From NCBI RefSeq assembly GCF_024808875.1, contig NZ_JANUCT010000011.1, forward strand, positions 1 through 64,000: a stretch of 64,000 bases of DNA. Reading direction: 5' to 3'. The DNA comes from Methylohalomonas lacus. Its GTDB lineage: Bacteria > Pseudomonadota > Gammaproteobacteria > Methylohalomonadales > Methylohalomonadaceae. Position numbers and translations under genes: made by a program. Below, in pieces: positions 17,075-26,760 of this stretch. Each line of letters begins with the position of its first letter. Position 1 is the first letter of the stretch. Under the pieces are notes generated by a model. The model saw only the letters and a program-made list of their open reading frames with translations, made no database searches and had not been told where the DNA came from.

Positions 17075-17262
17075 TCGGGCAGGCCAATAGTCGCTGTTGG
17101 TTGAAACCGGTGCCGCGTGTGACTCCCGCCGTCACTGAATTATCCCGCATAGCGGCCGCCATTTTTTCGCCACAATAATCCCGTGCTTCGTCATTCTGCC
17201 GACCGGTCCCGGTCAGCCTCCGGCGTTTTAATGGTCCGACATTTACCGGTACGGAGGTCGGT

Positions 17263-19398
17263 ATGCGGGGCATAAATCAAACCGGGCGGCAGCGGTCTTC
17301 GCGACCGCGCTGGCCCGCAAGCGTCAGGATCGGGCTGCAGCTTGTCCTGATTATTGTGTTGTTTCTTGTTGCGAACGAGGTTGTGACGGCCCGGCAATCC
17401 GTGACCGGTGACGGCGTGTCACCGGAACAGGTTGACGCCGGCGAATTGCTGTTCAGGCACGCCGGCGGCTACGAGCGCGCCGTGATGCTCGACAGCCGTG
17501 TCGATTTCCGCGTCAGCGGTTTGATCGCTAACGTTACCCTGCAGCAGTCTTTTCGCAATACGGGCGATGACTGGCGTGAGGCGGTGTACGTATTCCCGCT
17601 GCCGGAACAGGCGGCGGTGCGTGACATGCGCATCCGGGTGGGCGAGCGTGTTATCGAAGGCGAGATCCGCGAGCGTGCCGAGGCACAGCGCGACTACCAG
17701 GCGGCCAAAAGCGAAGGCAAACGGGCGGGGCTGGTCGAGCAGGAGCGTCCGAACCTGTTCACCGTGTCCGTGGCCAATATCGCGCCGGGTGAGACGATCG
17801 CGGTGGAACTGGTGTATGTCGAGACGCTGCAGTACGACAGCGGTGAATTCAGCCTGCGTTTCCCGATGACGGTAACGCCGCGTTATATACCAGGCGCGGC
17901 GCTGAACGCAGGTGCTGACGAGACCGTCACGGCGGTGGACGGCGACGGCTGGTCCTACAATACCGACCAGGTGCCGGACGCGGCACGTATCACGCCGTTG
18001 CAGGATCCGCATCCGGCGACGGACAGCCGGATCGTGAATCCGATAACCATCCAGGCCGAGATCGACGCCGGCATGCCACTGGCCGCGATCGACAGTCCCT
18101 GGCACGACATTCGCGTCGACCGCGACGAGCAACGCTACCGGGTTGCATTGCGTGGCGGTCCGGTGTCGATGACGCGCGATTTCGAACTGCGCTGGCGGCC
18201 CGATACCGGCCGCCAGCCACAGGCCGCCTGGTTCACCGAGACGCTGGCCGGGGAACACTACGGTCTGCTGATGCTGGTGCCGCCCGCCCGGACTGAACAG
18301 GAACAGGTGTTGCCGCGCGAGATGATTTTGGTGATCGATACCTCCGGTTCCATGGGCGGTGCCTCGATCCGGCAGGCCCGCGCCGGCCTGTCGCTGGCGC
18401 TGGACAAGCTGCGGCCGGGCGATCGCTTCAACGTCATCGAATTCAACAACCGGCCGCAGGCCCTGTTCCGCGACAGCCGGCCGGCCAGCCGTGAACATAT
18501 CGACCGGGCAAGGGAATACGTGGCGAACCTGGAAGCCGGCGGCGGCACCGAGATGCGCGCCGCCCTCGATATGGCGCTGTCGCAACAGGCGGCCGACGAA
18601 TCGCTTTTGCGCCAGGTTCTGTTCATTACCGATGGCGCCGTCGGCAACGAGGCGGCTCTGTTCGGGCTGATCGACGAGAAACTCGGCCGCTCGCGGTTGT
18701 TCACGGTGGGTATCGGCTCGGCACCGAACAGTCACTTCATGCGCAAGGCCGCCGAATTCGGTCGTGGCAGTTATACGTATATCGGCGCGGTGGATGAGGT
18801 CGGCGCGCGCATGGCCGAGCTGTTCGGCAAGCTTGAGCATCCGGTCGCCGGTGATCTGACGGTCGACTGGCCCGCTGGAGTAGAGGCCGAAGCCTATCCG
18901 GCACCAATACCGGATCTGTACCAGGGCGAGGTGCTGTTGCTGGCGGCGCGCCTCGACGACATCAGCGGCGCGGTCACCCTCAACGGTCGTACCACCGGCC
19001 AGCGCTGGCAACGACGCCTGCCTTTGACCGCACGCGACGACAGCAGCGGTGTCGCCAGCGTCTGGGCGCGGCGAAAAATCGCCGCTTTGCTGGATGAAAA
19101 GATCAGCGGCCGGGATGCGGAGGCGGTGCGGGCCGACGTGCTCGAGACTGCTCTGGCGCATCAGCTCCTGAGTCCGTACACGAGTTTTCTCGCTGTCGAC
19201 AAAACGCCGGTTCGCTCGCTCGACGCCGACCTGGAACGGGAATCCGTTCTGAATGCGCGTCCGCATGGCCAGAGCGCGCAGCCCTATGCCTGGCCGGCCA
19301 CGGCAACCGACAGTCGATTCAACATGTTGATCGGCGTGTTGCTGTTGCTGCTCGCCTTTGTGAACTGGTGGCAAAATCGCCGGCCGCGTCATGGTTAG
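17263..19398 (+). CDS. Sortase-target VIT/VWA surface protein (marine proteobacterial sortase target type)
   Basis: A 711-residue exported protein. Order: an N-terminal membrane/signal segment (LQLVLIIVLFLVANEVV); a VIT domain with LQQSFRNTGDDWREAVYVFP; a von Willebrand A domain with the metal site DTSGS at residues 359–363; and a C-terminal sorting region. The last part has PATAT at residues 678–682, then a hydrophobic segment (LIGVLLLLLAFVNWW) and a positive tail QNRRPRHG, the tripartite layout of sortase substrates. GGAGG precedes the ATG. The last 8 bp overlap the sortase gene, so enzyme and substrate are co-translated. Its ligand is unknown. Confidence 0.88.
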   Translation: MRGINQTGRQRSSRPRWPASVRIGLQLVLIIVLFLVANEVVTARQSVTGDGVSPEQVDAGELLFRHAGGYERAVMLDSRVDFRVSGLIANVTLQQSFRNTGDDWREAVYVFPLPEQAAVRDMRIRVGERVIEGEIRERAEAQRDYQAAKSEGKRAGLVEQERPNLFTVSVANIAPGETIAVELVYVETLQYDSGEFSLRFPMTVTPRYIPGAALNAGADETVTAVDGDGWSYNTDQVPDAARITPLQDPHPATDSRIVNPITIQAEIDAGMPLAAIDSPWHDIRVDRDEQRYRVALRGGPVSMTRDFELRWRPDTGRQPQAAWFTETLAGEHYGLLMLVPPARTEQEQVLPREMILVIDTSGSMGGASIRQARAGLSLALDKLRPGDRFNVIEFNNRPQALFRDSRPASREHIDRAREYVANLEAGGGTEMRAALDMALSQQAADESLLRQVLFITDGAVGNEAALFGLIDEKLGRSRLFTVGIGSAPNSHFMRKAAEFGRGSYTYIGAVDEVGARMAELFGKLEHPVAGDLTVDWPAGVEAEAYPAPIPDLYQGEVLLLAARLDDISGAVTLNGRTTGQRWQRRLPLTARDDSSGVASVWARRKIAALLDEKISGRDAEAVRADVLETALAHQLLSPYTSFLAVDKTPVRSLDADLERESVLNARPHGQSAQPYAWPATATDSRFNMLIGVLLLLLAFVNWWQNRRPRHG

Positions 19399-19969
19399 GT
19401 TGCGGCCCGGTAGTTATCTGCTGTTCGTACTGCTGATTCTGGGAATATGGCAGTTCGGTAGTGGCGCCTGGATACTGCTCAAGGCGGAACTGGCGCAGCA
19501 CCTGATCGCACGGGCCTGGCAGCAGACGCTGGTACGACAGGCACCGGTGAAGCCGTGGTCCTGGGCCGATACCTGGCCGGTGGCACGTCTGCAGTGGCGT
19601 GACGAAATTGACCTCTACGTGCTCGACGGCGCGAGTGCCGCGGCCCTGCCGTTCGGTCCCGGCCTGCAGCGCCATGGCTCGCTGTTGCTGGCAGCCGGCC
19701 ATCGCGATACGCATTTTGCCTTCCTGCGCCGGGTCAAACACGGCGACCGGCTGACGTTGACCGACATGCACGGTAGGGAAACGATCTTTCGGGTGCAGCT
19801 GCGACAGGTGGTCGACAGCCGCCAGGCGTCATTGCACGCCGCCGGCGCAGCGCCAGCGCTGGTATTGGTGACCTGCTATCCGTTCGACGCCCTGCGTGCC
19901 GGTGGCCCGTTGCGCTTTGTCGTTACCGCCACGCCACAATCCAACCATCATGATCCCGTGACGATCTGA
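19391..19969 (+). CDS. Class GN sortase
   Basis: Transpeptidase of the sortase superfamily in the Gram-negative (GN) class, 192 residues. An N-terminal membrane anchor (YLLFVLLILGIWQFGSGAW) is followed by the catalytic domain, with His104 in AGHRDTH, Cys162 in LVTCYPF and Arg175 in GGPLRFVV: all three catalytic residues are present. It should cleave and attach the upstream VIT/VWA protein, the only candidate substrate in the window. The acceptor is unknown. Overlap with the target gene is 8 bp. Confidence 0.92.
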   Translation: MVRLRPGSYLLFVLLILGIWQFGSGAWILLKAELAQHLIARAWQQTLVRQAPVKPWSWADTWPVARLQWRDEIDLYVLDGASAAALPFGPGLQRHGSLLLAAGHRDTHFAFLRRVKHGDRLTLTDMHGRETIFRVQLRQVVDSRQASLHAAGAAPALVLVTCYPFDALRAGGPLRFVVTATPQSNHHDPVTI

Positions 19970-20044
19970 GCCGGCTTTATACGTGGACTCGGCTAGCCGC
20001 TTCTGACTATAGTAGGCGCCACGTTCGGGCTGGAGGGTAACAGG

Positions 20045-21088
20045 ATGCGGATCAGCAGGGAGATGCTGGAACAGGCCGGCGCCAGTGGTGTTATTCCGCC
20101 CGGCAGTGTCGACACCCTGTGGCAGTTTCTGGCCGAACGCACGCAGCAGCAGGCCAGCTTCCGGCCGGCGCATATCCTCTACTATCTCGGCGGCCTGATC
20201 GCGATCAGCGCCATGTCGCTGTTTGTCACGCTGGCCTGGGACAGCTGGTCCGGCCTGCCGATGCTGGCGGTGGCGCTGGGTTACGCCGTTGTCGGCATCG
20301 CGCTCACGCATTACTTCCTGTATCGCAAGCAATTGGAAATCCCCGCTGGTCTGACCATCACTTTTGCCGTGGCGATGACGCCGTTGGTCATCTACAGCCT
20401 GCAGCATATGCTCGGTTTCTGGAGCGGCGATTACACGGTGGCCGAGTATCACCGTTACATCGACTGGCGCTGGCTGTTCATGGAACTGGGCACGCTGACA
20501 GCCGCGGTGATCGCGCTGTGGCTATACCGGTTGCCGTTTCTGTTAATGATTGTGGCGGTCACGCTCTGGTATCTGCAGATGGACCTGGTGCCGTTCCTGT
20601 TCAACGATCTGGACCATACCTGGGAACTGCGCAAACTGACCAGCGTGGTTGCCGGCACGGTCTACATGCTGCTGGCTTTCTGGATCGATATCCGCTCCGG
20701 GCGCAAACGCGACTATGCCTTTTGGCTGTACCTGGTCGGCGTGGCAACGTTCTGGGGCGGTCTGACGGCGATGGACTCAAACAGCGAACTCGGCAAGTTC
20801 CTCTATTTCTGCATCAACCTGCTGTTGCTGTTTTTCGCCGCATTGCTGGTACGGCGCGTTTTTGCGGTGTTCGCTTCCATCGGCATCGCGCTGTATTTTT
20901 ATCACCTGGCCGACAGGGTCTTTCAGCAGAGCCTGCTGTTTCCGGTGGCCCTGGCGGCGCTGGGACTGGCGATCATATTTGCCGGGCTTTACTGGCAGCG
21001 GCATGAGCAGCGGATACAGACCGCATTACTGAAGTGCATGCCGGGCAAACTGGTTGAGCTGATCCAGCGCGCCCACCAGCATTATTGA
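20045..21088 (+). CDS. Polytopic membrane protein of unknown function (DUF2157-like)
   Basis: A 347-residue integral membrane protein with about nine or ten hydrophobic segments after a short soluble N-terminus (MRISREMLEQAGASGVIPPG). The N-terminal pattern and helix layout resemble DUF2157-type proteins, but I make this link with moderate confidence. GGAGGG precedes the ATG. It follows the sortase gene by 75 bp on the same strand and could be transcribed with it. No catalytic motif is visible. Confidence 0.6.
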   Translation: MRISREMLEQAGASGVIPPGSVDTLWQFLAERTQQQASFRPAHILYYLGGLIAISAMSLFVTLAWDSWSGLPMLAVALGYAVVGIALTHYFLYRKQLEIPAGLTITFAVAMTPLVIYSLQHMLGFWSGDYTVAEYHRYIDWRWLFMELGTLTAAVIALWLYRLPFLLMIVAVTLWYLQMDLVPFLFNDLDHTWELRKLTSVVAGTVYMLLAFWIDIRSGRKRDYAFWLYLVGVATFWGGLTAMDSNSELGKFLYFCINLLLLFFAALLVRRVFAVFASIGIALYFYHLADRVFQQSLLFPVALAALGLAIIFAGLYWQRHEQRIQTALLKCMPGKLVELIQRAHQHY

Positions 21089-21172: not shown

Positions 21173-22276
21173 TCAGTCCCAGGCGAATTGATAGCCGACG
21201 GTGATGGTCCAGTCGGTTTCCAGCTGCGGCCCGTTCAGGTCCTGATGCACCGGGGTACCGACCTCGGCGGCCAGACGATGGCCGGCGAGGGCGGTGCCGG
21301 GCTGGCCGGCGAGGTTGACGCCGAACAGCAAATCGACCCGGTCGCCGCCGTAGTTGTCCGGGTCAGCGGTTTGCACCGGTGCCATGATTTGATCGTCGCG
21401 GCCGTCGATGCGGTCGACATGCTGACCCGCCAGTCGCACGGAAGTACTGATCCACGGCCGCCACAGGTAGCTGCCCCAGGCTGTCAGGTGGTGTTCGTCG
21501 CCGAGGCTGTAGCCCTCGTCGTTTCTGCCCAGGCGCAGCTTGTTCGTGAACTGCGCGCCCCAACCCCACTGCGCGTGCTTGCCGGAGTAGGTTATGCCCG
21601 GCAGTAAATCGAAAGTCCCCGAACCCAGTTGCATGCCGTAGGGCAGGCGCATGGTCGGCGTCGTGCCCATGGGGGTGAGTACAGTGTCTTCTTCGGTGAT
21701 CGAGCCGGTCGGCAGGCTGACGCCCAGGTTCAGGTGTAGATGATGGCGGCCGTCGTCGTACAGTTTGATCAGGCCGGTCAGGCTGGTGTCGCCGATGCCG
21801 CTGGAACCGGTCGTGAAGCTGCCCAGCCTGTCGGTGCCGGTGCCACCCTGGAAAGTGACGTGGTCCATCTGCTTGTCGTGATAGCGGCCCATCGCCATCA
21901 GCGTCAGCGAATCCGTCGGTGCGTACATGGCGCCGAACATGTGCATCTGCATGTCCATGCTGGTTGGTACTACGCGCAGGGTCGACGGTTGCATGGGCTG
22001 ATCGGCAAAGCGGTTCGGCACGCCGGTGACGATGTCCTCCGGGCTGACGTCGTCTGTGCCGATGTGATTGCCCGCCATGTCCATGTGCATGAAACGGTAG
22101 GAGATCATCCACTCGCCGGCGCCGTGCATGTGATCGCCCATGACACCGATCGGCGCGTGGCCGTCGGCGCGCGACATGGCGTTGCCGGTTTGCCAACCGA
22201 CCGGTGGGGATTCGTGTGCCGGAACGTTGAGCACAGTGAAGGCAAGTAAGGCAATAACAGCAATTCTGCAATACAT
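21173..22276 (-). CDS. Met/His-rich outer-membrane-type protein (MetA-pathway/transporter-like)
   Basis: A 367-residue secreted protein with leader MYCRIAVIALLAFTVLNVPAHE. The body has many short beta-strand-like segments and ends in GYQFAWD, with a near-terminal aromatic as in outer-membrane barrels. It resembles the family often annotated simply as 'transporter' or phenol MetA-like. Near the start it is very rich in Met and His (GDHMHGAGEWMISYRFMHMD, then MDMQMHMFGA), which suggests copper or another soft metal, by inference. It is divergent from a TonB siderophore receptor and has its own terminator. Confidence 0.65.
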   Translation of the reverse strand: MYCRIAVIALLAFTVLNVPAHESPPVGWQTGNAMSRADGHAPIGVMGDHMHGAGEWMISYRFMHMDMAGNHIGTDDVSPEDIVTGVPNRFADQPMQPSTLRVVPTSMDMQMHMFGAMYAPTDSLTLMAMGRYHDKQMDHVTFQGGTGTDRLGSFTTGSSGIGDTSLTGLIKLYDDGRHHLHLNLGVSLPTGSITEEDTVLTPMGTTPTMRLPYGMQLGSGTFDLLPGITYSGKHAQWGWGAQFTNKLRLGRNDEGYSLGDEHHLTAWGSYLWRPWISTSVRLAGQHVDRIDGRDDQIMAPVQTADPDNYGGDRVDLLFGVNLAGQPGTALAGHRLAAEVGTPVHQDLNGPQLETDWTITVGYQFAWD

Positions 22277-22455: not shown

Positions 22456-22599
22456 GTACTATTACTATCGCACCTGCCGGCTCGCCGCTGCCTCGGGGGG
22501 AGCCACCGGAATTTCTGATTGCTTACAAAACTGAACTGACCCACGCGGCTGCTGACCGGCAGTAATCGGGGGAGATTGCTTTATTTTAGGGGGAAAATC

Positions 22600-24804
22600 A
22601 TGCAGTTATCAGGATCAAACGCCAATGCCGCGGTATTGATATCCATGCTGATATTGGCGGCCGGCACCGGCGTCAGCAACGCCGCCGAGCCGCAGAACCG
22701 GGATGCGGCGTCAGGAAATGACCCAGCCGGCGTCGCCGAATTGGAGGCCGTCCAGGTCGAGGGCCGCTCGGAGTCGGCCTGGTACCCGACCGACAGCTAC
22801 TTGGCGACGCACAATCATAGCGCCACCAAGACCGATATACCGCTGATCGAGACGCCGCAGTCGATCAGCGTGATCACGCAGGAACAACTTGAAGATCGGG
22901 GCGCCGATACACTGACCAAGGCGGTAACGTATTCTCCCGGCATCTACGTACAGAACCGCGCCAGCCAGAATGTGATCGATTCCTTTTCCATCGATATACG
23001 CGGTTTTGATGCCACGAGTTCAACATTTCGTGATGGCACCCAGATCCAGGCGGGTCTGCCTTATGACAGCCCGATTGAAGTCTACGGTCTGGAACGTATC
23101 GAGGTACTGCGTGGACCGGCGTCGGTGCTTTATGGACAGGGACAACCGGGCGGCATCATCAACATGGTGACCAAGAAACCGGCCCGCGAGCCGCTGCGTG
23201 AGATGGGTGTCGAATATGGCACTGATGATCACAAACAATTCAAGGCGGATATCAGTGACCGTCTTACCGCGAATGGCGATTGGCGTTTTCGCCTGACCGG
23301 CCTGATTCAGAAGGCTGATACGCATGTCGATTTCATCAATGATGACCGAATCTATTTTGCGCCGGCCCTGAGCTGGGAGCCGACTGACAATACCAAACTT
23401 ACCCTGCTCGCCAATTACCAGAAGAACGAAACCAAGTACCCATGGACGGCATTTCCGCGCGAGGGCACCAAGGTGCCGAGCGAGTACGGCAGGATTCCGG
23501 ACAGCCGCTATATCGGCGAACCCGGCTTCGACGAATACGATGCCGAGGAATATTCTGCCGGTTACATCTTTGAGCACAGCTTCGCGGATCGCTGGACGTT
23601 CCGGCAGAATTTCCGCTATCGCGATATCAATTATGATGTGAAAGATGTGTTCAGGGATTATAGCCTGGGCATGGGTTACGTAGAGTCTGATCTACGAACA
23701 CTTAATCGTGGTCGGCGGATCCGGCATGACGAAGCTTATACAGTCACGTTGGATAACCAGTTAGTTTCGGAGTGGCAACATGGTCGTTTTGAACACACAG
23801 TACTAACTGGGTTTGATTATAAAATATTGGATTATGAACGGCGTGATACCGGTTTTAATTATGATGTGAGTACGCTTGATCTGTATGCACCAGTCTATGG
23901 CGACGATCCTTTCCCGGGGCCATTGTCTTTTTCTGAAACTAACACGCAGGCTGAGCAGCTTGGCCTGTATTTCCAGGACCATATCAAGTTCGGCGATCAC
24001 TGGGCGTTGACCGTCGGTGGCCGTCAGGACTGGGTCGAGTCAGAAACCACAGGCGAAGACAAACGCGAACAGGATGAGCTCAGTCTGCGCGGTGGCTTGG
24101 TCTACCTGTTTGACAACGGTTTTGCACCCTATGTCAGTTACGCGGAATCATTCACGCCCCAATATGACAGCTTCAGGTTTACCGGCGAGCAGAAAAAGCC
24201 GATTACCGGGAAGCAATATGAAGCTGGTCTTCGCTATCAGCCACCGGGCCTAGGTTTTTCTGCCACCGCTGCAGTATTTGAAATTACACGCAAGAATGAG
24301 CTAGTAGAGGATCCGGTTAATCCGTTGCGAGTTTCTCAAATAGGCGAGACTCGTTCGCGCGGTTTCGAATTCGAACTGCTGGCCGATCTAACCAGTAACC
24401 TGCAGATGATCGGCAGTTACACCTATCAGGACGTCGAAGTGGTCGAGGCCGGCGGATCACAGGCAACCAATGGCAACCAGGTCACGGATCGGCCCAAGCA
24501 CCTTGCCAAACTATGGCTCGATTACACTGTGCCGGCCGGCACGTTGGCCGGGCTGGGGGTGGGCGGCGGTATCCGCTACACCGGCACCTCCTATGCCGAC
24601 GCCGCCAACACGGTGAAATACCCGGCGGCGACGCTGGTCGATGCATCGCTGCGCTATGACCTGGGCAGTGCCCGGTTGCAGCTTAATGCCACCAATTTGT
24701 TCGATGAGCAGAAGGTCTACTGCTCCGGTGTGCAGCCAACCTCGACCTGCGACTATGGTCTGCCGCGTTCAGTCATCGCCAGCGTGACTTATCGTTGGCA
24801 ATGA
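22600..24804 (+). CDS. TonB-dependent siderophore receptor (FhuA/FpvA-like barrel)
   Basis: Outer-membrane receptor importing a ferric siderophore with TonB energy. From the ATG (AGGGGG precedes it) it is 734 residues with a leader ending VSNAAEP. The plug domain has TPQSISVITQEQLEDRGADT, PGIYVQNR, FSIDIRGFDA and GLERIEVLRGPASVLYGQG. The barrel ends SVTYRWQ. There is no ~80-residue N-terminal signalling (STN) domain, so it should not signal to a FecR-type regulator. Base composition falls in the middle of the gene (about 23640–23990 and 24130–24340), more AT-rich than the flanks. The substrate is unknown. Confidence 0.93.
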   Translation: MQLSGSNANAAVLISMLILAAGTGVSNAAEPQNRDAASGNDPAGVAELEAVQVEGRSESAWYPTDSYLATHNHSATKTDIPLIETPQSISVITQEQLEDRGADTLTKAVTYSPGIYVQNRASQNVIDSFSIDIRGFDATSSTFRDGTQIQAGLPYDSPIEVYGLERIEVLRGPASVLYGQGQPGGIINMVTKKPAREPLREMGVEYGTDDHKQFKADISDRLTANGDWRFRLTGLIQKADTHVDFINDDRIYFAPALSWEPTDNTKLTLLANYQKNETKYPWTAFPREGTKVPSEYGRIPDSRYIGEPGFDEYDAEEYSAGYIFEHSFADRWTFRQNFRYRDINYDVKDVFRDYSLGMGYVESDLRTLNRGRRIRHDEAYTVTLDNQLVSEWQHGRFEHTVLTGFDYKILDYERRDTGFNYDVSTLDLYAPVYGDDPFPGPLSFSETNTQAEQLGLYFQDHIKFGDHWALTVGGRQDWVESETTGEDKREQDELSLRGGLVYLFDNGFAPYVSYAESFTPQYDSFRFTGEQKKPITGKQYEAGLRYQPPGLGFSATAAVFEITRKNELVEDPVNPLRVSQIGETRSRGFEFELLADLTSNLQMIGSYTYQDVEVVEAGGSQATNGNQVTDRPKHLAKLWLDYTVPAGTLAGLGVGGGIRYTGTSYADAANTVKYPAATLVDASLRYDLGSARLQLNATNLFDEQKVYCSGVQPTSTCDYGLPRSVIASVTYRWQ

Positions 24805-24821
24805 CCGTTGCAGTCGGGCAT

Positions 24822-24849
24822 TTGACAGGCTAATAGACTTCAGTATTAT
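24822..24849 (+). promoter_or_regulatory. Promoter of the DUF3649–PepSY–DUF3325 operon
   Basis: TTGACA, 16 bases, TATTAT. A consensus -35 and a good -10, 38 bp before the chosen ATG. It starts 18 bp after the receptor stop codon, so the reductase-like operon is a separate unit. Confidence 0.7.
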
Positions 24850-24851
24850 CT

Positions 24852-24866
24852 GATTGATAATCAATC
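24852..24866 (+). promoter_or_regulatory. Fur-like palindrome
   Basis: GATTGAT-A-ATCAATC, a perfect 7-1-7 palindrome containing TGATAAT, directly after the -10. Its match to the Fur consensus is partial, but position and context are the same as at the receptor promoter. Confidence 0.6.
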
Positions 24867-24886
24867 TTATTAGTGTTTTATATGCT

Positions 24887-25207
24887 ATGCCCACTGACTC
24901 GCTGTTGTCGCGTTTCATGCATCTTATGCCTCAGTCCAGACACGTTATGTCATTAGCGTCCCGCATAGCCGCCGCCCTGTTCGGTGGCTATGCGGTGGCG
25001 TATTTCGCCGCTGCCGCACTGGCGGTAATCCTGCCGCTGGTCCGCTCGGAGGCAGCTGTCACGGCCATGCTGCTGGGCCTGCTCGTCTATGCGGCGGCGG
25101 TCATGTGGGTGTTTAGTGCCCGCAGTGCCGCGCACGCCTGGCTGGTGCTTTTAATCATCGCGGCGGTTTGTGCAGCGGTCGCCTACTTACCGGGCATGTT
25201 GTCATGA
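24887..25207 (+). CDS. DUF3649 family membrane protein
   Basis: A 106-residue protein with three or four hydrophobic segments. SRIAAALFGGYAVAYFAAAA and YAAAVMWVFSARSAAHAWLV match the DUF3649 pattern, a family commonly encoded with PepSY reductases next to siderophore receptors. The start is uncertain (other ATGs at 24917, 24926 and 24947). It overlaps the PepSY gene by ATGA. Function is unknown; an accessory role in iron release is inferred from context. Confidence 0.7.
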   Translation: MPTDSLLSRFMHLMPQSRHVMSLASRIAAALFGGYAVAYFAAAALAVILPLVRSEAAVTAMLLGLLVYAAAVMWVFSARSAAHAWLVLLIIAAVCAAVAYLPGMLS

Positions 25208-26760
25208 AAAAAACCTTTTCCCAGTCGATGGCCTGGCTGCACACCTGGAGCGGCCTGATCTTCGGCTGGATCCTGTTTGCGATATTCCTGACCGGTTCAT
25301 TATCCGTTTTTGATCGCGAGATAAGCCAGTGGATGCAACCGGAGTCGGCCGCTAGTCAGGTGCCGGCGACTACGGCCGTGGATAGGGCCGCCGACTATCT
25401 GCGCAACAACCACCCGGACGCGCCCAGTTGGTTAATTGTACCGCCCAGTGATCGCAGTGCGACGATGCTGGCCTACTGGCAGGAAGGCCAGGAATTCCCG
25501 CATGTCGCGCTGGACCCCGCCACCGGCAAAGTGGCCAAACGGGATACCGATGGTGGCCATTTCTTTGTGCATTTTCATTACCAGTTGCACGCCGGCACCA
25601 TTGGTACGTGGATCGTTGGTGGCGTGGGCCTGATGATGCTGATTGGTTTGTTGTCCGGCATCGTGATTCACAAGCGTATCTTCAAGGATTTCTTCACCTT
25701 CCGGCCGCGCGCCGGGGCGCAGCGTTCGTGGCTGGATGCGCACAATGCACTGGGCGTGCTGACGCTGCCGTTTCTGCTGATGATCACTTTCAGCGGTCTG
25801 GCCATTTTTGCCTTCATGTACCTGCCCAGCCCGGTCAAACTGCTGTACGGCGACAGTCTCGAGGACAGCGAGGAGTTCTTTCACGAGGCCCGCCCGCACG
25901 TTGATTTGGAACCCACCGATCAGTCAGCAGCCTTGTTGCCTCTTGGCGGCTTCGTTGAACGTACCCAACAGGCTTTTGGCACTGAGCAGATCTGGTATAT
26001 CTCGGTCGATCATCCCGGTGATGAAAATGCCGTCGTTTCACTCGAACCGCTGTATGGCGAGCAGTTGACCCTGTCGAACCAATTGATCCAGTTTCGGGGG
26101 ATAACCGGCGAACTGCTGCAAAAGGGTATGCCGTTTCAGCCGGCCACACATACCCAGCGTGTATTGACTGGCCTGCACTTTGCCCAGTTTGGTGGTGCCG
26201 TGACGCACTGGCTGTATTTCATCTCTGGCCTTGTCGGCACGGCGATGATCGCGACCGGCCTGCTGCTCTTCAGCGTCAAGCGGCGGCGCCAGATCGTCCT
26301 GGACAGCGATGTCAGCACCGGCTTTCTGAATGTGGTCGACCGTCTGAATGTCGCCGCCATTGCTGGCCCCATACTGGCCTGTCTGGCGTATCTGTGGGCT
26401 AATCGCCTGCTACCGCCGGGTCTGGCGGAACGCCCGGCCTGGGAGATCGGCGCCTTCTTCGCTGTCTGGGCACTGTCATTGATACATGCCCTGTGGCGGC
26501 CCGCCCGCCGCGCCTGGCTGGAGCAGTTTACGGCTGCGGCGCTGCTAAGCCTGTTGCTGCCACTGCTGAACATGCTGACCAGCAGTCAGCACTTGTTGGT
26601 GACGCTGCCGGCCGGTCGCTGGCGGCTGGCCGCCGTGGACCTGACCGTGCTGGCCCTGGGACTGGCTTGCGTCTGGCTGTTGCGGCGACTCGGGATGGAA
26701 CGCCAGCGGACAGCCGTATCCGGCTCTGCCGCACCGGTCTGGGAGCTGGCCGATTCATGA
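25204..26760 (+). CDS. PepSY-associated membrane protein (siderophore-iron reductase type)
   Basis: Inner-membrane protein of 518 residues with an N-terminal helix after MKKTFSQSMAWLHTWSG. A periplasmic PepSY-type region follows, containing HFFVHFHYQLH. The next helices are GTWIVGGVGLMMLIGLLSGI, then a second region and more helices with THTQRVLTGLHFAQFGG. Conserved membrane histidines could bind haem or metal. Such proteins accompany siderophore receptors and are thought to reduce ferric siderophores in the periplasm (family inference). It overlaps both neighbours by ATGA, so the three genes form one operon under the Fur-like promoter. Confidence 0.85.
   Translation: MKKTFSQSMAWLHTWSGLIFGWILFAIFLTGSLSVFDREISQWMQPESAASQVPATTAVDRAADYLRNNHPDAPSWLIVPPSDRSATMLAYWQEGQEFPHVALDPATGKVAKRDTDGGHFFVHFHYQLHAGTIGTWIVGGVGLMMLIGLLSGIVIHKRIFKDFFTFRPRAGAQRSWLDAHNALGVLTLPFLLMITFSGLAIFAFMYLPSPVKLLYGDSLEDSEEFFHEARPHVDLEPTDQSAALLPLGGFVERTQQAFGTEQIWYISVDHPGDENAVVSLEPLYGEQLTLSNQLIQFRGITGELLQKGMPFQPATHTQRVLTGLHFAQFGGAVTHWLYFISGLVGTAMIATGLLLFSVKRRRQIVLDSDVSTGFLNVVDRLNVAAIAGPILACLAYLWANRLLPPGLAERPAWEIGAFFAVWALSLIHALWRPARRAWLEQFTAAALLSLLLPLLNMLTSSQHLLVTLPAGRWRLAAVDLTVLALGLACVWLLRRLGMERQRTAVSGSAAPVWELADS

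Follow-up and report, generated by a model that had tools for sequence, protein, structure and literature searches.

What does a bacterium with an outer membrane do with a sortase, and which genes work alongside it? A locus in the 64,000-nucleotide stretch of Methylohalomonas lacus DNA that we analyzed (hereafter the window; contig NZ_JANUCT010000011.1, positions 1 to 64,000) raises this question. A VIT/VWA sortase target of 711 residues is encoded at 17263..19398 and a class GN sortase of 192 residues at 19391..19969, both on the forward strand and both where the initial annotation had placed them. A Shine-Dalgarno sequence, GGAGG, precedes the target gene at 17253..17257, and the reported gene overlap was found to be 8 bp, between the target stop and the sortase start (19391..19398, ATGGTTAG). 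In a curated HMM search, the target reached 784.1 bits on TIGR03788 (cut-off 551.65; E 9e-236) and the sortase reached 182.7 bits on TIGR03784 (cut-off 158.25; E 4e-54). Both matches were approximately full length, with positions 1-174 of the 174 in the sortase model covered, and both exceeded the curated NCBIfam cut-offs, which bears out the proposal of a class GN sortase with its own VIT/VWA substrate. Of 50 genomes in which the target scores above the cut-off, 49 have the sortase gene next to it (in G098, the remaining one, the two genes are on different contigs), and the genes overlap or touch in 64 of 69 homologous pairs. Given full-length curated matches and this adjacency, the pairing is not due to chance. 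A search with PF04203 returned a single sortase for the genome and so rejected the presence of further sortases; on the evidence of the overlap, the target is translationally coupled to the only sortase that the genome encodes. The pair is thus a real member of an already described two-gene kind, a Gram-negative sortase with its only substrate. Dedicated Gram-negative sortases adjoining VIT/VWA targets were described by Haft et al. in 2011 (PMC3237569), and as the arrangement was published there in outline, the pair is less novel than the initial annotation implied.

The target protein begins with a hydrophobic segment at residues about 22-42 (17326..17388; helix 19-41 in the AlphaFold2 [AF2] model), a candidate export signal or anchor. 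This is followed by a VIT domain (PF08487, residues 78-185, 17494..17817, E 4e-36) and a VWA domain (PF13768, residues 353-505, 18319..18777, E 6e-21), both scoring well over the Pfam cut-offs. The VWA domain has a complete MIDAS (D359-S361-S363, T429, and D457), with all five residues invariant in 41 homologues. The AF2 model had a pLDDT of 84.8, and its fold matched inter-alpha-inhibitor heavy chain 1 (E 9e-39 over 623 columns). At the C-terminus lies the signal YAWPATATDSRFNMLIGVLLLLLAFVNWWQNRRPRHG, composed of the sorting motif W-P-A-T-A-T (residues 677-682, 19291..19308), in which T680 is invariant in 21 homologues, then a membrane helix (residues 684-706 by AF2) and the Arg-containing tail NRRPRHG (helix and tail, 19312..19395). 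Cleavage is predicted between T680 and A681.

The sortase has one N-terminal membrane helix followed by the sortase domain. The initial annotation had noted His104, Cys162, and Arg175; all three are present (codons 19700-19702, 19874-19876, and 19913-19915, respectively), the Cys in a TLxTC-type motif, and were invariant in 26 homologues and later in 65. Acyl-enzyme chemistry at the invariant Cys would follow from known sortase families. The AF2 model of the sortase had a pLDDT of 92.8, and its best matches among solved structures in a fold search were all Gram-positive sortases; no class GN structure was found in the PDB by sequence or by fold. The next-best NCBIfam models were those of class D, NF033746 and NF058671, one of which is specific for LPxTATN. 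Membership of class D was nevertheless rejected, with 48.8 bits on both models against cut-offs of 165 and 140.

We then examined the sorting motif in partner proteins sampled from 30 genomes by HMM and from 80 loci by pattern search. The initial annotation had made its case depend on conservation of PATAT among partners, and a P-x-T-A-T-type motif stands directly before the transmembrane helix in 100 of 101 partner tails (own genome counted). By position, P was found in 87, T in 94, A in 95, and T in 89 of 100 partners, counts that hold within the search pattern P/A, T/G/A, A/G/S, T/N/S/A, and the residue preceding the Pro was mostly F, L, Y, M, or W. The signal of dedicated Gram-negative sortase targets was called LPXTG in PMC3237569. 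We rejected LPXTG as the class GN motif, as the Thr position is followed by Gly in 2 of the 100 partners and by Ala in 95. Read from these tails, the class GN motif is P-x-T-A-T, like that of class D substrates, whose signal is LPNTA (PMC3297441, PMC3222306). Six partners (at loci L066, L081, L112, L134, L135, and L141) have Gly or Ala in place of Thr, with the variant motifs PQGAT, PQGSS, PRGAT, PQGGT, and PQAAT; the GHRD and TC motifs were kept in 5/5 readable sortases of these loci, where the substrate logic may differ. The annotation had also proposed a check for other proteins with the same C-terminal signal. A signal profile built without this genome found the window target only (E 8e-13), the next match in the genome being at E 2.8 over 18 columns and covering part of a helix only. 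By this profile, the target is the sole sortase substrate of its genome.

The system appears to extend beyond the window. Elsewhere in the genome are a kinase matching TIGR03785 (620 bits, cut-off 612.2), a regulator matching TIGR03787 (375 bits, cut-off 335.7), and an OmpA-family protein that reached 131.6 bits on TIGR03789, under the cut-off of 152.2, and is for that reason called PdsO-like here. It matches PdsO in position, operator, glycine zipper, and OmpA domain. The three genes lie together on contig C6 (91,275-94,928), at least about 103 kb from the target-sortase pair, given correct assembly. Judged by these family matches, the system exceeds two genes, and a dedicated kinase, a regulator, and a PdsO-like protein belong to it. 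In relatives, the usual order runs leftwards through kinase and regulator and rightwards through PdsO (if present), target, and sortase. Among the 50 target-bearing genomes, the kinase was linked in 25 and unlinked in 12 (an upper bound, given fragmented assemblies), and the other 13 gave no kinase match at E<=1e-80; in G347, kinase and target are 870 kb apart on one contig. After their own models, PdsR and PdsS are nearest to CreB (172 bits) and CreC (145 bits), respectively; CreD was not found in this genome. The kinase sensor region (L048:7258-9345, contig C6) has a weak, sub-threshold CBM9-like match (E 0.011), also seen in L083. It falls short of identifying a carbohydrate sensor, and we keep it as a hint of possible carbohydrate or wall-fragment sensing.

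What could connect two loci so far apart? In 54 relatives, the spacer between the regulator gene and the divergent PdsO or target gene carries a strong direct repeat that they have in common. The best 17-mer seed averaged 14.1 matches against 10.3 in shuffled sequences, a contrast that by itself exaggerates the evidence, close relatives being numerous among the 54; in most of them, including distant groups, GCCA half-sites can be seen arrayed at 10/11, 21, and 22 bp. We built a 29-bp position weight matrix from other species only, with similar sites down-weighted and our own genome left out. Across both strands of the window (~128,000 positions), its best match was 17167-17195 (TCGCCACAATAATCCCGTGCTTCGTCATT) at 16.3 bits, the next being 12.2, and it scored 26.3 bits in the genome's own regulator-PdsO spacer. 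The site forms the core of a predicted PdsR-type operator at 17154..17214 (forward strand), with GCCA/GTCA half-sites in an A-11-B-21-C-22-D array whose end lies some 50 bp short of the target start codon. When the entire 2.76 Mb genome was searched with a sequence-only model made from 29 sites (R1), just two matches had E<=10, one upstream of the target-sortase pair (E 0.005) and one in the regulator-PdsO spacer. The window site is weaker than most.

When 1 Mb of DNA from relatives was scanned, matches of at least 16 bits beyond the training set were for the most part held-out sites a short distance ahead of target or PdsO genes. Under stricter filters, operator matches at E<=0.05 were found in 23 of 78 further genomes, and in none of the 26 genomes in which sortase and kinase are both absent; these counts take related genomes as separate. 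Of the 12 unlinked-kinase genomes (own included), 7 have either a model match at the target or a site there scoring 16 bits or more. The arrangement seen here, with a site at each of target and PdsO, recurs in three split genomes (G220, G045, and G139); two others (G142 and G102) have no operator site at the target, and G218 has no model match at its target. The kinase/regulator/PdsO locus thus appears to be wired to the target-sortase pair by a shared predicted operator. We found no description of this operator in the open-access literature searched, and what is new here is the predicted DNA switch that would tie the pair to a distant two-component regulator and PdsO-like protein.

The operator also marks other genes. 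A second site leads to PdsO in G220, G045, G139, G185, and G166, and precedes an OmpA-family lipoprotein gene where canonical PdsO is absent (G177, G345, G137, G200, and three in G300). G300 has further sites before CreD and upstream of an MltC-type lytic transglycosylase. Its expanded set comprises the target, three OmpA lipoproteins, CreD, the MltC-type region, and one unidentified gene (sites at L146 3234; L147 3265 and 8303; L148 4571; L149 3858; L150 4116). OmpA-family lipoprotein genes directly follow the kinase gene at L083:3841, L094:2902, and L106:2916-3689, those of L083 and L094 with their own operator-like site in front. In G126 (L160:2517), a strong 28-bit operator-like site lies before the gene for another VWA-like protein (DTTGSM), which bears a signal peptide. 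CreBC has been tied to the inactivation of a penicillin-binding protein in Pseudomonas (PMC2654508). Taken together, the CreD and MltC sites of G300, the closeness to CreB/CreC, and the weak CBM9-like match point to a system that serves wall or envelope upkeep.

Directly downstream of the sortase, 20045-21088 encodes a membrane protein with a sub-threshold DUF4401 match. Its membership of the operon was not supported, with the gene near the pair in 0 of 80 relatives, and a promoter-like site before it (19984-20013) is weak, being one match where 0.7 are expected by chance. None of the remaining neighbors considered (dapB, an hpf-like gene, a DUF1289 gene, and 21173-22276) recurs near the pair in the 80 relatives. 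Further along, at 22576-26760, a TonB-dependent siderophore receptor (FhuA-like, below the equivalog cut-off) is followed by a DUF3649 protein and a PepSY membrane protein; by its gene content, this looks like an iron-uptake cluster.

Our main reading, to which we give a probability of roughly one in two, is that this genome encodes a complete class GN (Pds) system split over two loci and working as follows. The CreBC-like kinase would sense an envelope or wall condition, and the phosphorylated regulator would bind both operators, inducing the target-sortase pair and PdsO together. The C-terminal helix would keep the target in the inner membrane until the sortase Cys cuts T680|A681 and forms an acyl-enzyme, which would be passed to the side-chain amine of meso-diaminopimelate (mDAP) in lipid II or in periplasmic peptidoglycan. 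The result would be a metal-binding VWA protein held covalently on the wall, with an OmpA-like partner that binds peptidoglycan above it in the outer membrane. Within this reading, we infer the T680|A681 cleavage, the mDAP acceptor, and PdsR induction. The choice of mDAP follows from the class D models being next best for the sortase, from the SrtC precedent, and from the Gram-negative wall, which carries the same mDAP amine. Partner signals with Gly or Ala for Thr sit uneasily with a strict T|A requirement. The initial annotation regarded the attachment point as not established, and this agrees with the open-access literature searched, which names no acceptor and in which we found no experiment showing class GN activity or a cleavage site. 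Deletion of the sortase of Shewanella oneidensis left current density unchanged (PMC8176591), and with no effect on current production there, no phenotype supports any role.

The alternative that survives best is unlikely but carries real weight. It retains the T|A cut and alters the outcome: the sortase would act as a processing protease, with water resolving the acyl-enzyme and a soluble periplasmic VIT/VWA protein being released. Some members of the same VIT/VWA family carry GlyGly-CTERM instead (PMC3237569), so that the VIT/VWA body evidently tolerates processing by non-sortase enzymes, and no acceptor is named in the literature searched. On the other hand, neither the catalytic Arg nor the complete sortase fold varies, and the class D relatives are transpeptidases (PMC3297441), which favors transfer over release. 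Distinctly less probable is that the conserved repeat is bound by a regulator other than PdsR, which would control these genes. PdsR is CreB-like, and in G300 the repeat also lies upstream of creD and the MltC-type gene, which could form a CreB regulon in other bacteria; yet at most linked loci the regulator's own divergent promoter contains the repeat, and it is absent from the 26 genomes that lack the system.

We see little prospect that the OmpA-like protein (PdsO or its lipoprotein equivalent) is itself the acceptor, giving a covalent VIT/VWA-OmpA conjugate that is not linked to the wall. PdsO often adjoins the target gene, and an OmpA-family protein is the only recurrent co-regulated partner, but the identity of that partner shifts between PdsO in some genomes and predicted lipoproteins, with an acylated N-terminus, in others. 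TIGR03789 is matched at E<=1e-25 in only 13 of 50 target-bearing genomes, which weakens PdsO as a universal acceptor, and apart from the glycine zipper and the OmpA domain, there is no sign of a conserved Lys or N-terminal nucleophile. Least probable of all, despite the distance from the regulators and an operator weaker than average, is a relic pair that is no longer expressed or functional here, as both ORFs are intact and every catalytic and MIDAS residue is in place, the genome still has only two such operators, one of them the pair's, and the same wiring occurs in other split genomes.

Returning to the wall-anchoring reading, a wider form of it is a tentative proposal that we hold with more doubt than confidence. 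Class GN systems in general would constitute one small wall-maintenance regulon under a PdsR operator (GCCA half-sites, A-10/11-B-21-C-22-D), coupling a T|A-cut, mDAP-linked VIT/VWA protein to an OmpA-family peptidoglycan-binding outer-membrane protein, even with the genes far apart. The corrected motif, the single substrate, and the operator allow direct tests of the Thr680 acceptor and of PdsR control. With the operator as a query, additional members of the system can also be sought in any genome, independently of gene neighborhood.

How does this system compare with those already known? All five components of the published class GN/Pds system (TIGR03784, TIGR03788, TIGR03785, TIGR03787, and TIGR03789) are here too, and it shares the adjacency of target and sortase, the single substrate, the VIT/VWA architecture, and the tripartite C-terminal signal. 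It differs in that the pair stands apart from the kinase, regulator, and PdsO, in having W-P-A-T-A-T where PMC3237569 gives LPXTG, and in a PdsO-like protein just under the cut-off. CreBC-CreD resembles it, with CreB and CreC nearest to PdsR and PdsS and CreD bearing the operator in the relative G300; in contrast, PdsR and PdsS score far higher on their own curated families (375 and 620 bits), and no CreD is present here. The rhombosortase/GlyGly-CTERM and exosortase/PEP-CTERM systems have their signals on some VIT/VWA homologues instead (PMC3237569), and both are unrelated membrane enzymes, whereas the window enzyme has a true sortase fold. Among experimentally studied systems, the closest parallel is that of the class D enzyme SrtC. 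It cleaves LPNTA at the T-A bond with an m-Dpm amine as acceptor, and its SrtC-BasI-SctRS operon in a Gram-positive spore former includes a two-component system (PMC3297441). The likeness lies in a dedicated target-sortase operon tied to a two-component system, a T/A signal, and an mDAP-type wall. SrtC-BasI-SctRS is Gram-positive and sporulation-specific, with two substrates; an OmpA-like partner is not expected in its host, and the window sortase does not reach the class D models (49 vs 140-165 bits). For this last reason, we would say by analogy that the class GN pair works like the class D module rather than that it is one. If the wider, regulon form of our reading is true, covalent sortase anchoring to the periplasmic wall would be the Gram-negative counterpart of the class D SrtC-SctRS module.
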